The translations under genes and the position numbers were made by a program. Positions 7,405-21,194 of a stretch of 21,194 bases of DNA are shown here, in pieces (the stretch's first letter is position 1; the number at the start of each line of letters is the position of its first letter). The DNA lies in contig JAQIWT010000400.1 of assembly GCA_034696485.1 (NCBI GenBank), positions 1 through 21,194 on the forward strand. Direction: 5' to 3'. The notes under the pieces are model-generated. The model had not been told where the DNA came from and ran no database searches. It was given only the letters and a program-made list of their open reading frames with translations. Source of the DNA: Isohypsibius dastychi (Eukaryota; Tardigrada; Eutardigrada; Parachela; Isohypsibiidae).

Positions 7405-7650
7405 CCCCACCTCACCATACCTTACCTTTGCTTATTTTACCTTACCTTACCTTACCTTACCTTGTCTGGTCTTACCTTACCTTACCTTACCTTATCTTAC
7501 CACACCTTACCTTACCTTATCTTACTTTAACTTATTCAGCTTGACTCAGATTACTTTACTTCACCCTACCTTACCTTACCTCATCTAACCTCACACTATA
7601 TTACTTTACCTCACCTTATTATTTCTTACTATACCTTATTACACCTTTCG
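7405..7650. repeat. degenerate (CCTTA)n pentamer array
   Basis: Repeated CTTAC/CCTTA units, clean near 7436-7500 and increasingly degenerate to about 7650. All three + strand frames stay open through it and encode Leu-Pro-Tyr-Leu-Thr repeats, which is why large apparent ORFs occur here. These are not regarded as genes. Confidence 0.9.
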
Positions 7651-13254: not shown

Positions 13255-13282
13255 GTTCTCCCGTATAGAATTTTTGTTTCAG

Positions 13283-14823
13283 GGGCCGTGCTTGGTGGCC
13301 GGCTATGCGTAATTGTGGCAAGAGAAGGGGGTTGTGAGATTGAATGTCTGAACATTACAACCGCAACAATGGAATTCAACGCGAAACTCCATGATTATTA
13401 CGATTCAGCAGTCAGTGTTGCTTCATGTTTAATCTATATCATCCATCGGCATGGATCATTGTCTCGGTTTGACCCAAAGGACCGCACTATTGTTAATGTC
13501 CAAAAACTGACATATCTGGAAGAGAGATTGGCAATATGAGAACAAAAGGCGGTCTTGCTGCTTGTGAAGGTACGTTCCGATGAATTTTTTGAAAAGAAGT
13601 AGACCTCCGTTCGTCTAGTATTTTTTGTCCCCCGCCCATAAACACTCCTCGAACGGCGGTAGAACGCGTGTCACAAAAGTTAAAAAAAACTATAAAATTG
13701 ATTTGTTCTCAAAAGTACGAAGAAGGAATTTAAAATGTTGATGAGATCACTTTTACATATATGCCCCTCTCATCCAATGCTCTTCAACCATGCAGGTGGC
13801 CTCTTCTGTGTGGACTCCGGGAGAGTTATTCGGTGCCCCGAATATGATATAAATGGAAAGATGTGCTTGCTCAACCGCACCATACTGCACTGCGAAGGTG
13901 ATCGAACGATCAAATTGTCACGGGATAGAGCTGACTTTGCGGGATGGAGTACGATAGGCACATTCCACTTGCCTAAAAAGATTTTGGACTATAGGTCCTG
14001 CCATTTTGCGAGGGGTACACCATTTCTGTCTCTAGCATAAAAAACATGCCTAACCTCGAACCTTTGTTGTGTTTAGCCGTCTCTGAAGCGCTGCCCGTGT
14101 TGAGTGGACTCTGAAAAGCACTTGATATTTGAGGTAAGGAAACTTTGATGATCTAAGAATCCTCAGAACAATCTGGTTTTTCAGCGAAATCCAGTAGCTA
14201 GAAAAAGTAGTGGAGGCAAAAATATCAAACCTGGAGCGGTACATTGTATCTGTAATACAATATAATTTCATCTTTTTTTTATTCATTCACATCTGTTCGT
14301 AACAGTGTCTTTAATTCTGTAAACTATTTGTTTTTTTAGTTTTTCTATTTGCATATTTGGTTCATTTGTATACAGGTAGTTTCAGTTGCGTTTTTATGTT
14401 TGCGCATTTATGTCTTCCTTGTATGTATTATTTCCATGCACATCACGAAGGCTTACTCTCCATCGTGAATCTCGAATACGATTGTCTATCACCTTTTGAA
14501 GAATAAAATCACAATGACAGAGGCCAGCCGTCAAGTAAACCGATGAAGTGTCGATTAAATACAGAATTTCAAGATCAACACGTAAAATGAAGGCTTTATA
14601 CTCAGCGGGTGAATCCTTTTCTTACTTTCATACCCACAGGTCCGGGAAAATACGCGTACGAATGCACTGTTCCCGATATGTCCGTCCCATTCGGGCGTAA
14701 GGGCATGCTTTCCCCCAAAACTTCTCTTCAGGTCACTTACGGGTATGTCAGACATGGAAGACTCCCTTCGTTCCGATATTTCAGGGAAGTTCAGAGTCCC
14801 GGGCTTATTCGAGCTTAGCTTGA
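13283..14823 (+). pseudogene. multi-exon gene with one frameshift, possibly propeller-like
   Basis: The proposed exons are 13283-13570, 13796-14014, 14640-14731 and 14785-14823, with stop TGA at 14821. The acceptors are good (TTTGTTTCAG, ATGCAG, CCCACAG, TATTTCAG), and the joints 13570/13796, 14014/14640 and 14731/14785 keep phase when the first exon is read in its shifted end frame. The first exon opens in one frame (VLGGRLCVIVAREGGCEIEC, later RFDPKDRTIVNVQKL) but meets TGA at 13537. The frame that fits its donor is displaced by one base, so a single indel near 13,500-13,535 is implied. The rhythm of beta strands, with Gly-rich turns and FDPKD, recalls kelch-type propeller blades, but no canonical double-glycine motif is present. 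The C-terminal GPGKYAYE segment weakly recalls SHIPPO-type PGP repeats. Family uncertain. The joint 14014/14640 is the least certain; the frame otherwise stops at 14038. Confidence 0.45.
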
Positions 14824-15699: not shown

Positions 15700-16380
15700 A
15701 GATGTACTACACACTAGAATCTGTTAAAACATTTCACCCGCTGGCTTCCCAACTCGATCAGCATTTTCTGGAAGGTTTCGGAAGTAATTCAATAAAAGCT
15801 GCTGCTGCCTGCTGCCACTGGATTGAGTGAGCGGCATATTGCCTGTCGCGCCCTCTGATATCCAGACTGCTGTATGCTGACCGTTGACATCCAGCTCCCT
15901 TTGTGAAAAAGGTGTTAATAAGTTCGATTGTTTGCATGGGGGCAAATGAAGGGGAAAAGTAATGTTAGGTAAAAGAAGGCTAGAAAGTTGTTGCAAAGGT
16001 AATTGTTTCTGTCTGTTGTTCTGCAAAGAAGAAGATCTATCGCGAGATCAGTTTTATGATTTTGTAATTATTTGTCTCTATGTCAATCATACATAAAGTG
16101 AAGCAGTGGGGCAGGAGGAGTGGTGGCGCTCTGGTCGGTGGTCAGGAGGAAATCAGCAAGAGCTCTTATCAATAAACGATTTTTACCGCTTAAAGAAAGA
16201 ATTGACAAAAACTTCTTTTTGTACTGTAATATACAGAAAACTTTGTTAGCAGCAAACCCGTCTGTATGAGGCAACAAAGGAATTTGGCGGGAGAATTAAA
16301 TATTAAATAATTAAATTAAATAAATTCAGGGGGTATCGATGTGGCAGGGTGGGGGCTAGGGCTTACACATTATGTCCCGA
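15700..16380. other. no recognisable gene
   Basis: Two - strand frames (15724-16026 and 16083-16277) have no supporting features. An AT-rich stretch made of TTAAA/TAAAT units lies at about 16295-16330. Confidence 0.45.
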
Positions 16381-16391
16381 GGTCAACCCCG

Positions 16392-16417
16392 ACACTGGCT
16401 TTGTACGACGCCAGTGT
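16392..16417. other. small perfect stem-loop
   Basis: ACACTGGC and GCCAGTGT form an 8-bp stem with a 10-base loop about 140 bp upstream of the next gene. Function unknown. Confidence 0.6.
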
Positions 16418-16559
16418 TGTGCTTTTTCCACAACGGCTGAGATTCTGCCATTTCATTCTGCATAGCAAACGAGCGCTTGTAATGCATGCAGTCGTTTCTT
16501 CCTATTGAATATATCATCCCAATGGAATTGATGGAAGTTAGCTGAATATCAAGTCTATC

Positions 16560-17390
16560 ATGAAAGCCAATCTATCGTTCGCTTCTGAGAAGACGCTTGA
16601 AGAGGTGAGTTCTAGTTTTCTCCTCATTCCATTCTTCTGAACTCCTGTTTGTATCCTTTTTAAGACACAAGAGGAAATCATGCGTTCTAATTCGCGATAT
16701 GATGAAATGCTGGCCATTTTGTGGTCCTGTGGACAAGCTGGGTTATCCGATTTCGCTCATGGATTCCAAGGTACGTTCATTTATAATGGAGAGAGTAAAG
16801 GGGATTTTATTCTCAGCCGAAGATGAAGTTTTTGCATTTTTTTGTTTTGTTATCCAGACCAGAGGTTGAAGTTCGAGATGGGAATTGCCTTGCTTATTCA
16901 GCATTTCGGAAAGAAATATCATTTCCTTAAAACTCCCTTTCTGATATTTCCGTCCTCGTGAATTCTTGTTTCGTCCAAATAAATGATGTGATGATTTTTT
17001 AATTCTTTGTTATCATGTTTCTGATGATAATTTATCATATTTTGGTTCGCAGTTTGGTACAAGCTGATGTTTCCATTGATGAACGGTCGAGGATATACTG
17101 GATTTTGTTTGGCATACCTTCTAGCTTTACTTCAGTAAGATTCACAAATTGTTGCATTGCATGCGAATGTGATTCACTTTTCGGCTGTCTTAGGTGTTTC
17201 ATGGTGCGAATTCGGATTTTCAGTGGCTTCAGCGCGATTTGGGGATTTTGTGGTGAATATGTTTGATACGCAGCTCGAGCGCTCGACTTCTCCCAATATT
17301 CGCTCGCATTTTTTGCCGAAGGTATTTGGGTCGAGCCATGGAGAAAACTCATCAGACTTTCGACTGGAGATTGAGGTGAAATTAGTTTAG
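16560..17390 (+). pseudogene. RRP6/EXOSC10-like 3'-5' exonuclease, truncated and frameshifted
   Basis: The exons are 16560-16604, 16665-16770, 16858-16957, 17054-17134 (with one leading base at 17053) and 17194-17390. All joints keep phase. An in-frame TAG lies just upstream of the ATG at 16560, which supports that start. The last exon begins VFHGANSDFQWLQRD and, one frame over, continues FGDFVVNMFDTQ. Together this is the signature of the DEDD exonuclease core of RRP6 (nuclear exosome subunit EXOSC10), around the ExoII motif. RRP6 trims structured and processed RNAs in the nucleus. One T appears to be missing near 17240 (GATTTGGGG where GATTTTGGGG would keep frame), so the intact reading frame ends at TGA about 17254. 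The frame after the break runs to TAG at 17388. The total is far shorter than the usual 650-900 residues, and the N-terminal exons have no recognised relative. It may be a host pseudogene fragment or decayed Maverick cargo. Confidence 0.6.
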
Positions 17391-17411
17391 TGCTGCTTTC
17401 GGTTCAATTTG

Positions 17412-17417
17412 AATAAA
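17412..17417 (+). terminator. polyadenylation signal AATAAA
   Basis: AATAAA lies 22 bases after the downstream stop of the RRP6-like gene, a spacing compatible with a short nematode-type 3' UTR. Another AATAAA occurs at about 16979 but lies inside the inferred intron. Confidence 0.45.
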
Positions 17418-17521
17418 TCATTGATAAGAAACGTCATGCACCACGCAGATATCAACTTGTTGATAACCATCCTGGTATTTGGACGAATATCTTGTCCACC
17501 CTCACTTTTAGCCAAACCGTA

Positions 17522-17973
17522 CAGGGGACTAACATATTTTATTCCAGGGGGACTTATAAATTTTAGTTCAGGGGGCTTCACATGTTTTATTTCAGGGGGG
17601 CTTTACATGTGTTAACTCAGGGGGTCTAATCTATCTATCCTAGGGGGTTTCACATATTTTTTATCAGGGGGTTTCATGTATTCTGATCTAGGGGGTTTCA
17701 CATATTTTAGTTCAGGGGGCTTCAGACATTATCTTTCAGGGGGCTTCAGACATTTTCTTCCAGGGGGCTTCACATGTTTCATTTCAGGGGGCTTTCCATG
17801 TTTTAATATAGGGGGTTTAATATATTTTATCCTAAGGGGGTTTCACATATTTTTAATTAGGGATTTCATATTTCCTATTCCAGGGGGTTTCTTTTGTTTA
17901 TTCTAGGGGTTTCATATATTTCAGTTCAGGGAGCTTCACATATTTTACTTCAAAGAGCTTCACATGCTTGTTT
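17522..17973. repeat. 24-bp minisatellite, about 19 units
   Basis: The unit is approximately CAGGGGGCTTCACATATTTTA plus three bases, and length varies from 23 to 26 bp. Its GGGGG core is conserved in most units and degrades toward the right. Because 24 is a multiple of three, long stretches stay open and encode an 8-residue repeat of the form GGF-x-x-F-x-S. This explains the frames at 17409-17615 and 17676-17906, which I do not call as genes. Many units carry TTTCAGG, which resembles a nematode splice acceptor. Confidence 0.9.
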
Positions 17974-18082
17974 TGAGAGAGGCAAAAATTACTCGATTTC
18001 GTACCGTGTGCATAATCGTTGGAGACGCGATCACGAGCGTTATGACATGGATTATTTATCTGAAGTCTGCAAAAGTGATGTG

Positions 18083-18090
18083 TGACGTCA
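18083..18090. promoter_or_regulatory. CRE palindrome TGACGTCA
   Basis: Perfect TGACGTCA upstream of the polymerase gene. Identical sites lie at 15148, 15166, 18288 and 20679. Confidence 0.4.
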
Positions 18091-18287
18091 CTTACCTGAA
18101 AATAAAGATGGCCGTCAGCTGTGATATTGCATTATTTTCTGCAACGTAATCCTTCTAGAGGCTTCAGTGTCTTACTCAGTGTTAAGTAAACTAGCACGTT
18201 TACGGTAAAATCCGATTGAATCCTTCGCAAAATGTCTTCACATCATGACTCTGCAGATTTTATTGCTGACTGTTGGTGTCAGCTGGC

Positions 18288-18295
18288 TGACGTCA
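18288..18295. promoter_or_regulatory. CRE palindrome TGACGTCA
   Basis: Perfect TGACGTCA about 110 bp upstream of the putative TATA box of the polymerase gene, a position where a bZIP factor could act. Binding is inferred only. Confidence 0.45.
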
Positions 18296-18315
18296 CATAC
18301 TGTAAATCGTATTCA

Positions 18316-18387
18316 AATCTTCCAAAACACAGTAAAACCTTGAAAAATCTTCCAAAACACGGTAAAACCTCGAAAAATCTTCCAAGA
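18316..18387. repeat. 30-bp direct repeats just upstream of the polymerase promoter
   Basis: Units at 18316-18345 and 18346-18375 begin AATCTTCCAAAACAC and differ at only two positions. A partial third unit follows. They lie directly before the TATA-like element and could be a promoter-proximal regulatory array. Confidence 0.85.
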
Positions 18388-18396
18388 TGGAAAATG

Positions 18397-18404
18397 TATA
18401 TAAA
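18397..18404 (+). promoter_or_regulatory. TATA-like box of the polymerase gene
   Basis: TATATAAA lies 47 bases before the ATG at 18451. A transcript starting about 30 bp downstream would have a very short leader. This supports the 18451 start over the in-frame ATG at 18232, which lies upstream of the TATA box. Confidence 0.45.
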
Positions 18405-18450
18405 CTATGAGCTTTACTATCATACAAGTCTTTTCTTTACGTTTTCAAAA

Positions 18451-21194
18451 ATGTATTCCGATGATGAGTTCGAGGAGATGCTTGCTTACCATGATAATTT
18501 GGATGACTTGTATGATGAGATGTTGGGTGATCCATTTCCGGGTGAACCACTTCCGGTCCAGTCTGGAGGCTCACGTCATGAATCCATCGACGGGAAGCTG
18601 ACCATAACTGATGACGGACGTCACAACTCGGTCAAGTACGGCTGTTCCTTCCGTCGCTTCAAGGTAGCCCTGAATGACCTCGGCCATGTTGAGTTCAAGG
18701 ATATTCCATATTTCATCCATAAAATTTTGGACGAAGTTATCAGACGAATTACCACCGGAATTCCAGACCACCACCGTGTTCGTATTATTATGAGTTTGAA
18801 AAGTTTGGCTTTTCCGATCTGGACACCGCTTATTGCCAAAAGTGAGCTCACCGTCGAACGATGGATGCTTGAGGTAAGTCACATGGTAATCCCATGCTTA
18901 ATAAAATAACGTTATGATCAATTATTTCGCCAACATTATATTGAATTTGCGTTTCATTGTGATGAGGCAAGCTTTCACCTAATAAGCTTCATGTTCTCGT
19001 CAAGTTTTCGTGGACTTCTAGTCAGGTTTTGGGAGGCCTTTAAAATTAGCACAGTATTCAGATGTGTGTTAACCGATTTACATGATTTTGGTACTGTATT
19101 GTGATTTGTGTATAATTTTTGCTAATTATCTATCGCAGCAAAGTACCTGAGGTCTCCTCCAGAGTTATAAGTTCGCTGAGGATATCGTCAAATTTTGTTA
19201 AATTTGGAAGGTTTGGCAGGCTGTGAAATTTACGTATCTGATTTATGAGTTTGTCAAGATACACTGTGGTTCTGCTCATTTATCTTAACGATTATTTTTA
19301 TCAATATTTATTGATTTCTCGATTATTTTGGTCATAGGTCATCAGATTGTTTTTTACTGTTGTTCTGGGAACATTTGATTTGAATTAACTCAAAATAACA
19401 TCTGTATGATAGGTTGAAAAGGTTCTGAATTCCAATGAACAAGTCAAGCTGGATGAGGGACTCAGTCTTTTGGTCCAAGTTTATGAAGTTCCTGGAGGCT
19501 CTTGCAATCACAAACTTCCGGAACGTATTCTCGCAAAACTCAAGAAGATGAGGAGTGTCATCCAAGTTCGAAATGAAAGAGACCAAATGTGCCTTGCTCG
19601 CTGTTTCATCGTTGCTCAGGCCCTCATTCAGTATGGCACCGGTTCTCCAGAGCAAAAGAAAGCCGCTCAGGATCGGAGGTATCAACGTGAATCTGCTGCG
19701 AAGCTTTTGGTGGAAATGAATTTGCCAGACAGAGAGATGACCCTTGAAGACCTCCCACATTTTACGAAAGTAAGCACTCCAAATTAATCTGGAATTTCGC
19801 TATTTGGAATTGACTGACCAAAAAACAGTATTGTCGAATATTTCTAAATCCCAAAATATCTTTCAGAAATTCCCAAATTATCGAATAAAGATTTATGGAC
19901 TTGATCAGCGATGTGCCACTATTTACGACAACAAGGTTGATAGCCAGCAAGTGGTTAACCTCCTCAATTATTCCCATCACTTTGCCGTTCTGAAAAGCCT
20001 TCCCGGATTCTTTGGCAAGTCTTACTGGTGCTTGAAGTGCGATAGGGGTTACGATCATCGCCTGGAACATCACTGTGGTCGGATTTGCGAGGATTGCCAT
20101 ACCACTGAATGTCCGCAGACCAAAGATCTTCGGCTAGAGTGTTCTGACTGCCAGCGGACCTTCGGAAGCCACATCTGTTTTAGCAAGCATCAGTCCAGTA
20201 TGAGAACCGCCGGAAAGAAACAAGTGCCCATTTGCCACCGAGTTCGTCGTTGTTTGACCTGTTCGTCTCATTATCGTGCGGATCGACGTGAAAACGACCA
20301 GCCACATCGCTGCGGGGAACAGCTCTGCCAAGTCTGCCATCTTCATGTCCTTCCGGATCACAAGTGCTACATCAAACCTCTCAAGTTCAGTGACGAAAAA
20401 GAAGAGGAGCATTCGGCTGCCAGATTTCTTTTCTTCGATTACGAGACCTACGTACGGGAAGACGGACAGTTGGTTCCAAATTTAGCCGTCGTTCAGGATG
20501 ACCAGGGGAACGAACATGTTTTTCCGGAAGATGGAATTATCGGACCGGATGTCACCAACGCCCTCTGTGAGTTTTTATTCCAGGATGTCCACAAGGGATT
20601 CTACGTCATCGCTCACAATTTCCAGTCCTTTGACGGTATGTTCATTCTCCGGTGGCTCCTCAATAACAGTGTCAAGTGTGACGTCATCATCGCCGGAGGA
20701 AAGATCAAGAATATCAGCGTGCCAGAATACAAGATGCTTTTTCGGGATTCCCTTGCTTATGTTCCCACCACCTTGGCCAAATTTCCCGCCCTCGTGGGAA
20801 TTCAAGATCTGCGAAAAGGTGACTTTGGACATCGTTTTAACCGGCCTGAGAACTGGAATAAGGTCGTCGCCTTCCCCACCAAAGAAGATTTCGACTTTAA
20901 CCGGAAGAGTGACAAGGACAAGCTCGTATTCGACCAATGGTATGAGCAAGATAAAGTCAAAAAGAATGGACAGTATGACTTTAATCAAGAATTTATCGCC
21001 TACTGCAATCAGGTAAATGGTGAATAAATCGGGATTTATCTGTTTTATTTCAACTCTGGACATTTCTAGGATGTTACGGTCCTTCGCCAGTGCTGTCTGA
21101 AATTTCGAGAACTCTACATGGAAGTCAGTACCGGAATTTGCCCCTTTGTTTCCGGAATCACCATTGCCAATATCGTCACCAACCTCTGGCGGAC
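18451..21194 (+). CDS. Maverick/Polinton-type protein-primed DNA polymerase B, 5' part
   Basis: The exons are 18451-18873, 19413-19769, 19867-21012 and 21070 to the window edge. All introns are phase 0 with consensus donors (GTAAG, GTAAA) and AG acceptors, and they are 539, 97 and 57 bp long. The product is the polymerase that replicates these large self-synthesising elements by protein priming. About 683 residues are visible. The start is acidic (MYSDDEFEEML). Residues about 315-427 form a Cys/His-rich block with repeated C-x2-C pairs, probably zinc binding. ExoI is FFDYETY (D451, E453). ExoII is HNFQSFDG (N511, D516). ExoIII is Y639-x3-D643 and is split by the third intron. All proofreading residues are therefore present and no stop or frameshift is seen. 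The catalytic polymerase motifs (the region ending in YxDTD) lie beyond the window. This fits the viral/organellar family B polymerases of Mavericks and adintoviruses. An in-frame ATG at 18232 is the alternative start but lies above the TATA box. Confidence 0.88.
18874..19412 (+). other. first intron of the polymerase gene
   Basis: 539 bp, donor GAG|GTAAGT, acceptor ATGATAG|GTTG, phase 0. It is much longer than the other introns of the window. No gene, inverted repeat or tandem repeat was recognised in it. Confidence 0.75.

Follow-up and report, generated by a model that had tools for sequence, protein, structure and literature searches.

Maverick elements are approximately 15-25 kb long, with terminal inverted repeats that start with 5′-AG, and some giant viruses carry general transcription factors. 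Mavericks (Polintons) and Adintoviridae, in the excerpts of PMC8363768, are characterized by a PolB, an rve integrase, an A32/FtsK-type ATPase and an adenovirus-type protease, and in these genes they resemble contig C131 of the assembly analysed here. TATA-binding proteins (TBPs) occur sporadically in alga elements of putative mirusvirus origin (excerpts of PMC10675990), and the term TATA-binding protein occurs in papers on Mimiviridae and mirusviruses. The excerpts found by a literature search with Maverick-type words plus TATA contained no TBP of a Maverick or adintovirus, a result that applies to these excerpts and does not establish absence from print. The terms TATA and TBP gave no match in the main texts of PMC11071296, PMC11071308, PMC8363768, PMC10675110 and PMC10120064, and both matches of 'tata' in PMC12220804 were parts of an author name. 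The methods excerpt of PMC10120064 describes endogenous viruses as lacking introns; the polymerase gene described below is contrary to this in having them.

The window, by which we mean the whole stretch of DNA analysed (21194 bp), is the complete contig C400 of an assembly comprising 30.4 Mb in 1648 contigs. Its right end carries a spliced polymerase gene (pol), for which the nearest copy found was on contig C1246. The features of the gene are as follows:

18451..18873, + strand: pol exon 1, 423 bp, open frame, donor GAG/GTAAGT; 340/421 bases identical to C1246
18874..19412, + strand: intron 1, 539 bp, phase 0, GT..AG
19413..19769, + strand: pol exon 2, 357 bp, open; 77/119 residues identical to C1246
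19770..19866, + strand: intron 2, 97 bp, phase 0, GT..AG
19867..21012, + strand: pol exon 3, 1146 bp, open; PF03175 over residues 245-382
20029-20367, + strand: Cys/His block in exon 3, read from the sequence
20434-20448, + strand: putative ExoI motif FDYET, exon 3
20617-20634, + strand: putative ExoII motif NFQSFD, exon 3
21001-21012 and 21070-21072, + strand: putative ExoIII motif YCNQ/D, split by intron 3
21013..21069, + strand: intron 3, 57 bp, phase 0, GT..AG, inside ExoIII
21070..21194, + strand: pol exon 4 (DVTVLRQC...), cut by the contig end; 106/125 bases identical to C1246

The lengths of exons 1 to 3 are all multiples of 3, and these exons contain no stops. Exon 3 matched PF03175 (DNA_pol_B_2) with E=6.9e-17 and 61.9 bits (cut-off 25.8), and Pfam detected nothing above a cut-off in exons 1, 2 and 4. 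The names and roles of the three Exo motifs are those that we presume for this polymerase. An annotated protein of the tardigrade Paramacrobiotus metropolitanus (LOC129600792), inspected by eye, runs on across all three exon joints of the window. This PolB and LOC129591156, both annotated as 'uncharacterized', were 49% identical to the C131 polymerase used as query, over 97% of its length; other proteins of the same species showed 39-51% over parts of it. Judged by these nearest named relatives of the C131 polymerase, the host may be a tardigrade or close to one. Neither profile A2 nor exon 3 found a relative in IMG/VR. Thus the preliminary description was correct in reporting a spliced PolB of the Maverick type, whose open exon chain has three proofreading motifs, three phase-0 introns, a Cys/His-rich block preceding the exonuclease and an ExoIII motif split by an intron. 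Its view that so clean a polymerase is exceptional did not hold, because 58 of the 77 PF03175 stretches listed for the assembly are free of internal stops. The three introns of the window polymerase, together with the TBP and PC4 genes of its relatives (see below), distinguish the lineage from the described Mavericks and Adintoviridae.

An intron at the ExoIII site of the window is also present in C1246 and C157. In C101, C394, C447 and C1594 the intron lies approximately 4 codons earlier, as judged from the breaks between tblastn pieces, and in the other 15 of the 22 matched loci, including C131, C432, C439, C801 and C124, the region is unbroken. C1178, the 23rd locus compared, had no match. 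Because C131 is nearer to the window than C157, the intron was either lost in C131 or gained twice. Introns at two neighbouring ExoIII sites indicate shifts in intron content inside one lineage. The pol tree was built from 16 of 17 prepared rows (C154 was short and was dropped; C801, C907, C147, with its exon-3 stop, and shorter matches were absent). In this tree the window and C1246 form a group (100/100) that is joined by C131 (100/98), whose exon 3 is 58% identical to that of the window, and the window polymerase and the six included TBP-bearing contigs lie on the same side of a 100/100 branch. Contigs C276, C1522, C450, C693, C265 and C824 carry a second group of Maverick-type polymerases, without ExoIII intron and without TBP matches.

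The region to the left of pol was examined for the border of the element. It contains these features:

15900..16245, + strand: dispersed genomic repeat abutting the left border of the element; 15900 is only the start of the query
16248..21194, + strand: visible left part of the probable Maverick element, 4947 bp, running off the contig; homology with C1246 from 16248
16248..16264, + strand: element terminus, 5′-AGCAGCAAACCCGTCTG, common to C400 and C1246
17482..17952, + strand: 24-bp tandem array in the element leader (TRF 17532-17952, 17.6 copies); C1246 and C289 have similar arrays
18299..18388, + strand: three 30-bp putative promoter repeats; similar ones precede pol in C1246 and a small gene in C1246/C1494
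18397..18403, + strand: TATA box TATATAA, 54 bp upstream of the pol ATG

The dispersed repeat is 92% identical to C328:16427-16769 and 68-75% identical to stretches of C259, C119, C990, C1610 and C1220; none of these six matches extends beyond window position 16245. Homology to the sister element on C1246 begins at A16248, where both copies have the left terminus AGCAGCA. The terminal 17-mer AGCAGCAAACCCGTCTG occurs exactly only in C400 and C1246 within the assembly, and in C289 with one mismatch; when up to 2 mismatches were allowed, there were 8 matches versus 5 for the reversed control. A similar end, weak and judged by eye, lies near position 3219 of C1494 in the opposite sense relative to pol. 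To the left of 16248 the window had no long match to the twelve stretches of relatives' contigs that were compared. We consider it likely that an integrated Maverick (Polinton, adintovirus-like), lying beside or inside the dispersed repeat, accounts for window 16248-21194, which would be its pol-side end. The border at 16248 and the start of pol together define a leader of approximately 2.2 kb ahead of the gene, so the position given earlier was right for pol, which starts at 18451, and wrong for the element, which starts about 2.2 kb further left. The pol gene of C1246 and the small gene of C1246 and C1494 (MEFPELF...) are likewise preceded by a TATA box and by repeats resembling the 30-bp ones.

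In the rest of the window, the contig starts with a run of C (3-35), the 5-bp repeat ACCTT is present in 42 copies at 7409-7618, and two frames in 13255-14037 look kelch-like by eye and have no Pfam match. None of the ten window ORFs outside pol that were compared with Pfam gave a match.

Comparison with C1246 was informative about selection and age. In exon 3 the two copies share 329 of 381 residues, with dN 0.069, dS 0.895 and dN/dS 0.077; in exon 2 pN was 0.208 and pS 0.779. DNA identity is 67-85% in the exons and 48-50% in introns 1 and 2; intron 3 has 71% over 56 bases. The difference in conservation between exons and introns and the dN/dS value are what selection on a protein produces. 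With C131 as outgroup, 19 replacing and 49 silent changes in exon 3 were assigned to the window branch, and 28 and 40 to the C1246 branch. The two copies split long ago, and the 30.4 Mb assembly showed no sign of recent copying. The suggestion that the element is young is therefore not supported, the nearest copy found having a dS of about 0.9 in exon 3. As to a still functional element, exons 1 to 4 are open, and the polymerase domain and all further genes would lie past the contig end.

Because the contig ends within exon 4, it does not reach the palm domain, the right terminus or any further genes, and the identity of the element has to be taken from its relatives. The window itself showed neither a TBP nor an integrase, a protease, a capsid gene or a second terminus, and its visible part of the element had no match with E<0.1 to 15 proteins or pieces of C131, the C-terminal part of pol included. 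C131 encodes a PolB, an rve integrase (E=2.9e-12) with a chromodomain-like end that scored below its cut-off, an A32-like ATPase (Pox_A32, E=6.2e-6) and an adenovirus-type protease (Peptidase_C5, E=2.4e-5). Pol, with the motif YCDTD, has a convergent TBP gene just behind it, and C131 also has a small gene and PC4; on the other strand lie the genes of the protease, the integrase and the ATPase and of two proteins that are putatively a capsid protein and a penton. The capsid and penton names are our presumptive ones, the conserved 444-aa protein beside the protease being what we take to resemble a double jelly-roll capsid. This protein had no Pfam, PHROG, PDB-profile or phage-record match, and its single-sequence fold model had a pLDDT of 30. 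Judged by its gene content, C131 is a Maverick. YCDTD is also present in the C1246 polymerase, and the diverged pol relatives on C101, C432 and C439 are accompanied by several further Maverick genes, as in C131. From these kin, i.e. C131, C1246, C1494, C101, C432 and C439, we infer that the window polymerase belongs to a Maverick. Of the original assignment to a Maverick element, the PolB type was thus found directly, through PF03175 in exon 3, and the membership comes from the gene content of the relatives.

Some further features were observed on these contigs. From L039:6254 to L040:2165 the protease, capsid candidates, integrase and ATPase frames of C131 lie head to tail on a single strand with near-zero spacing, some of them overlapping. 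Near the edge of C131 a BIR-like frame (L040:3016-3405, + strand) matched PF00653 with E=0.03, below the cut-off, and a BIR domain is also present in a Paramacrobiotus polymerase protein (P0149). Frames resembling ABCG transporters by eye (L038:5668-7360) lie beside the element remnant of C1494.

The visible part might also be all that is left, i.e. a terminus and part of pol, with the contig end hiding a truncated, dead Maverick copy. Two relatives are in such a state: C1494 is decayed or truncated, and in C1246 exon 1 has a frame shift and a stop, the ExoI Glu is replaced, the site aligned with the intron 2 acceptor lacks AG, and of the TBP only a remnant of 45 residues (73%) is left directly behind pol, most of the gene being missing. 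Unlike in C1246, the four visible exons of the window are open, their introns have GT..AG ends and the exo motifs are present, and we regard a dead fragment as possible but doubtful.

A TBP gene is a recurrent companion of these polymerases. PF00352 matched at least 28 stretches on at least 18 contigs of the assembly, and 9 of the 18 also carry pol, which is present on at least 42 of the 1648 contigs; the probability of this by chance is 8e-11 in a hypergeometric test that counts contigs as equal in length and takes both lists as lower bounds. The nine contigs with a Maverick-type polymerase and a TBP gene are C131, C101, C157, C394, C432, C439, C801, C163 and C491. The TBP gene of C131 is as follows:

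L039:3716-4264, - strand: C131 TBP, PF00352 in two stretches, E=5.1e-31

The PF00352 lobes were also confirmed in four more element TBPs. In addition to the nine, a TBP with frame breaks adjoins a pol end in C1494. The TBP gene is convergent with pol and lies just behind it in C131, C1494 and C157, as does the C1246 remnant. C198 and C134 carry TBP together with a capsid candidate, and on C27, C135, C274, C360 and C784 neither pol nor a capsid candidate was found in our lists. C792 encodes the host TBP, an open frame of 194 aa with two lobes. In the window's own copy a TBP gene would lie beyond the contig end.

The element TBPs are of two kinds. In the first, the start of the gene is overlapped by a second frame (C131, C1494, C101, C394, C432 and, by tblastn coordinates, C157); in the second, TBP lies directly before the ATPase gene (C801, C439 and C198). 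C163 is mixed, having a stretch like the overlapping frame and a stop-bearing TBP that is followed by an ATPase-like frame. In metagenomes, 34 proteins related to the first kind were found, 40-62% identical to the C131 TBP, and one related to the second (C801) among 43 candidates. Like cellular TBPs, the element proteins have two Pfam lobes. They branch apart from them: the TBP tree separated element and metagenome proteins from the human, Encephalitozoon and host TBPs (100/99), in a sample of 26 rows with three cellular sequences and 16 of 35 metagenome proteins, and with long branches meeting. Among known TBP structures, those of eukaryotes were better matches to the element and metagenome TBPs than those of archaea. 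Between C101 and C394 the TBP genes had pN 0.135 and pS 0.794, and by this measure the element TBPs look constrained.

The conservation of contact residues was examined in 21 element and metagenome TBPs, using what we take to be the yeast numbering and the TATA- and TFIIB-contact positions. Of the TATA-contact aromatics, F99 and F207 are present in all 21 rows and F190 in 20; position F116 has Tyr in 17 rows and Phe in 4. At the presumed TFIIB-contact positions E188 is present in 21/21, L189 in 11/21 and E186 in 10/21 rows.

The protein encoded by the frame ahead of TBP (preTBP) gave no Pfam match in five rows. Its model, built from the 5 rows, had a pLDDT of 70.5 and resembled RNase T, a DnaQ-fold exonuclease, with a best E of 8e-4 (TM-scores 0.3-0.4, rmsd approximately 10). 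A second resemblance was to a protein without a name in Drosophila-associated adintovirus 2 (E=5e-5; TM-scores around 0.5). In C1494 (L038:9113-9125) the start codon of TBP overlaps, out of frame, the stop of the preceding frame, and similar overlaps are found in C131, C101, C394 and C432. The overlap suggests coupled translation, in which TBP would be made by re-initiation on the same message, or else production from a spliced message. A PC4 domain scored above the Pfam cut-off on C131 (E=1.7e-9), C432 and C1246, and similarity to the C131 protein revealed PC4 also on C101, C1494 and C157.

We then looked for TATA boxes at element genes. The motif TATAWAD was found within 130 bp of 9 of the 14 gene starts tested, including that of the window polymerase, 44-66 bp before the ATG. 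Of 1163 background stretches from the same sequences, each 130 bases long, 75 contained the motif, which gives a binomial probability of 3e-8 for gene starts that were chosen by us, partly homologous and hence not independent (the C157 start, on the other strand, was not among them). No TATA box was found at the other five starts, namely those of the C131 ATPase, preTBP in C101, C394 and C432, and pol in C1178, so TBP cannot explain all promoters.

These results bear on what the element TBP does. It could be a decoy or a DNA-bending protein, acting for example in packaging or replication, instead of a promoter factor; its gene adjoins that of a packaging-type ATPase in C801, C439 and C198, and the presumed TFIIB contacts at E186 and L189 are only partly kept. 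The TATA boxes at 9 of the 14 element promoters tested and the retained TATA-contact aromatics argue against such a role, which we consider unlikely. In the working model that we consider most likely, the element TBP recognizes the TATA boxes of its own element and recruits host RNA polymerase II. That the window polymerase is instead a host-domesticated gene kept for a host function, as its introns and low dN/dS might suggest, is highly improbable, given that it is preceded, over 2.2 kb, by a terminus and leader common to C1246, that its diverged relatives on C131, C101, C432 and C439 are accompanied by several Maverick genes, and that the flank left of 16248 had no long match in the relatives' stretches compared.

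In the model of a TBP-encoding Maverick, the element would insert by its integrase, and host RNA polymerase II would transcribe pol from the TATA promoter behind the 30-bp repeats, which the family seems to reuse ahead of a second gene. Host splicing would yield the polymerase message. By analogy, the PolB, with its Zn-finger-like block and 3′-5′ exonuclease, would replicate the linear element by protein priming. The TBP of the lineage, perhaps together with PC4, would bind the TATA boxes of the element and bring in host RNA polymerase II.

From the observed gene content, TATA boxes and conservation, we think it fairly probable that an animal Maverick lineage including the element of the window has its own promoter kit, consisting of TBP, mostly with a Tyr at one of the intercalating positions, a DnaQ-fold-like partner, a PC4-like factor and TATA/30-bp repeats, with which it directs host RNA polymerase II. 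If this is true, Mavericks too, as small integrating elements of animals, are able to redirect host transcription at its first step, a point of relevance to Maverick expression in animal chromosomes.
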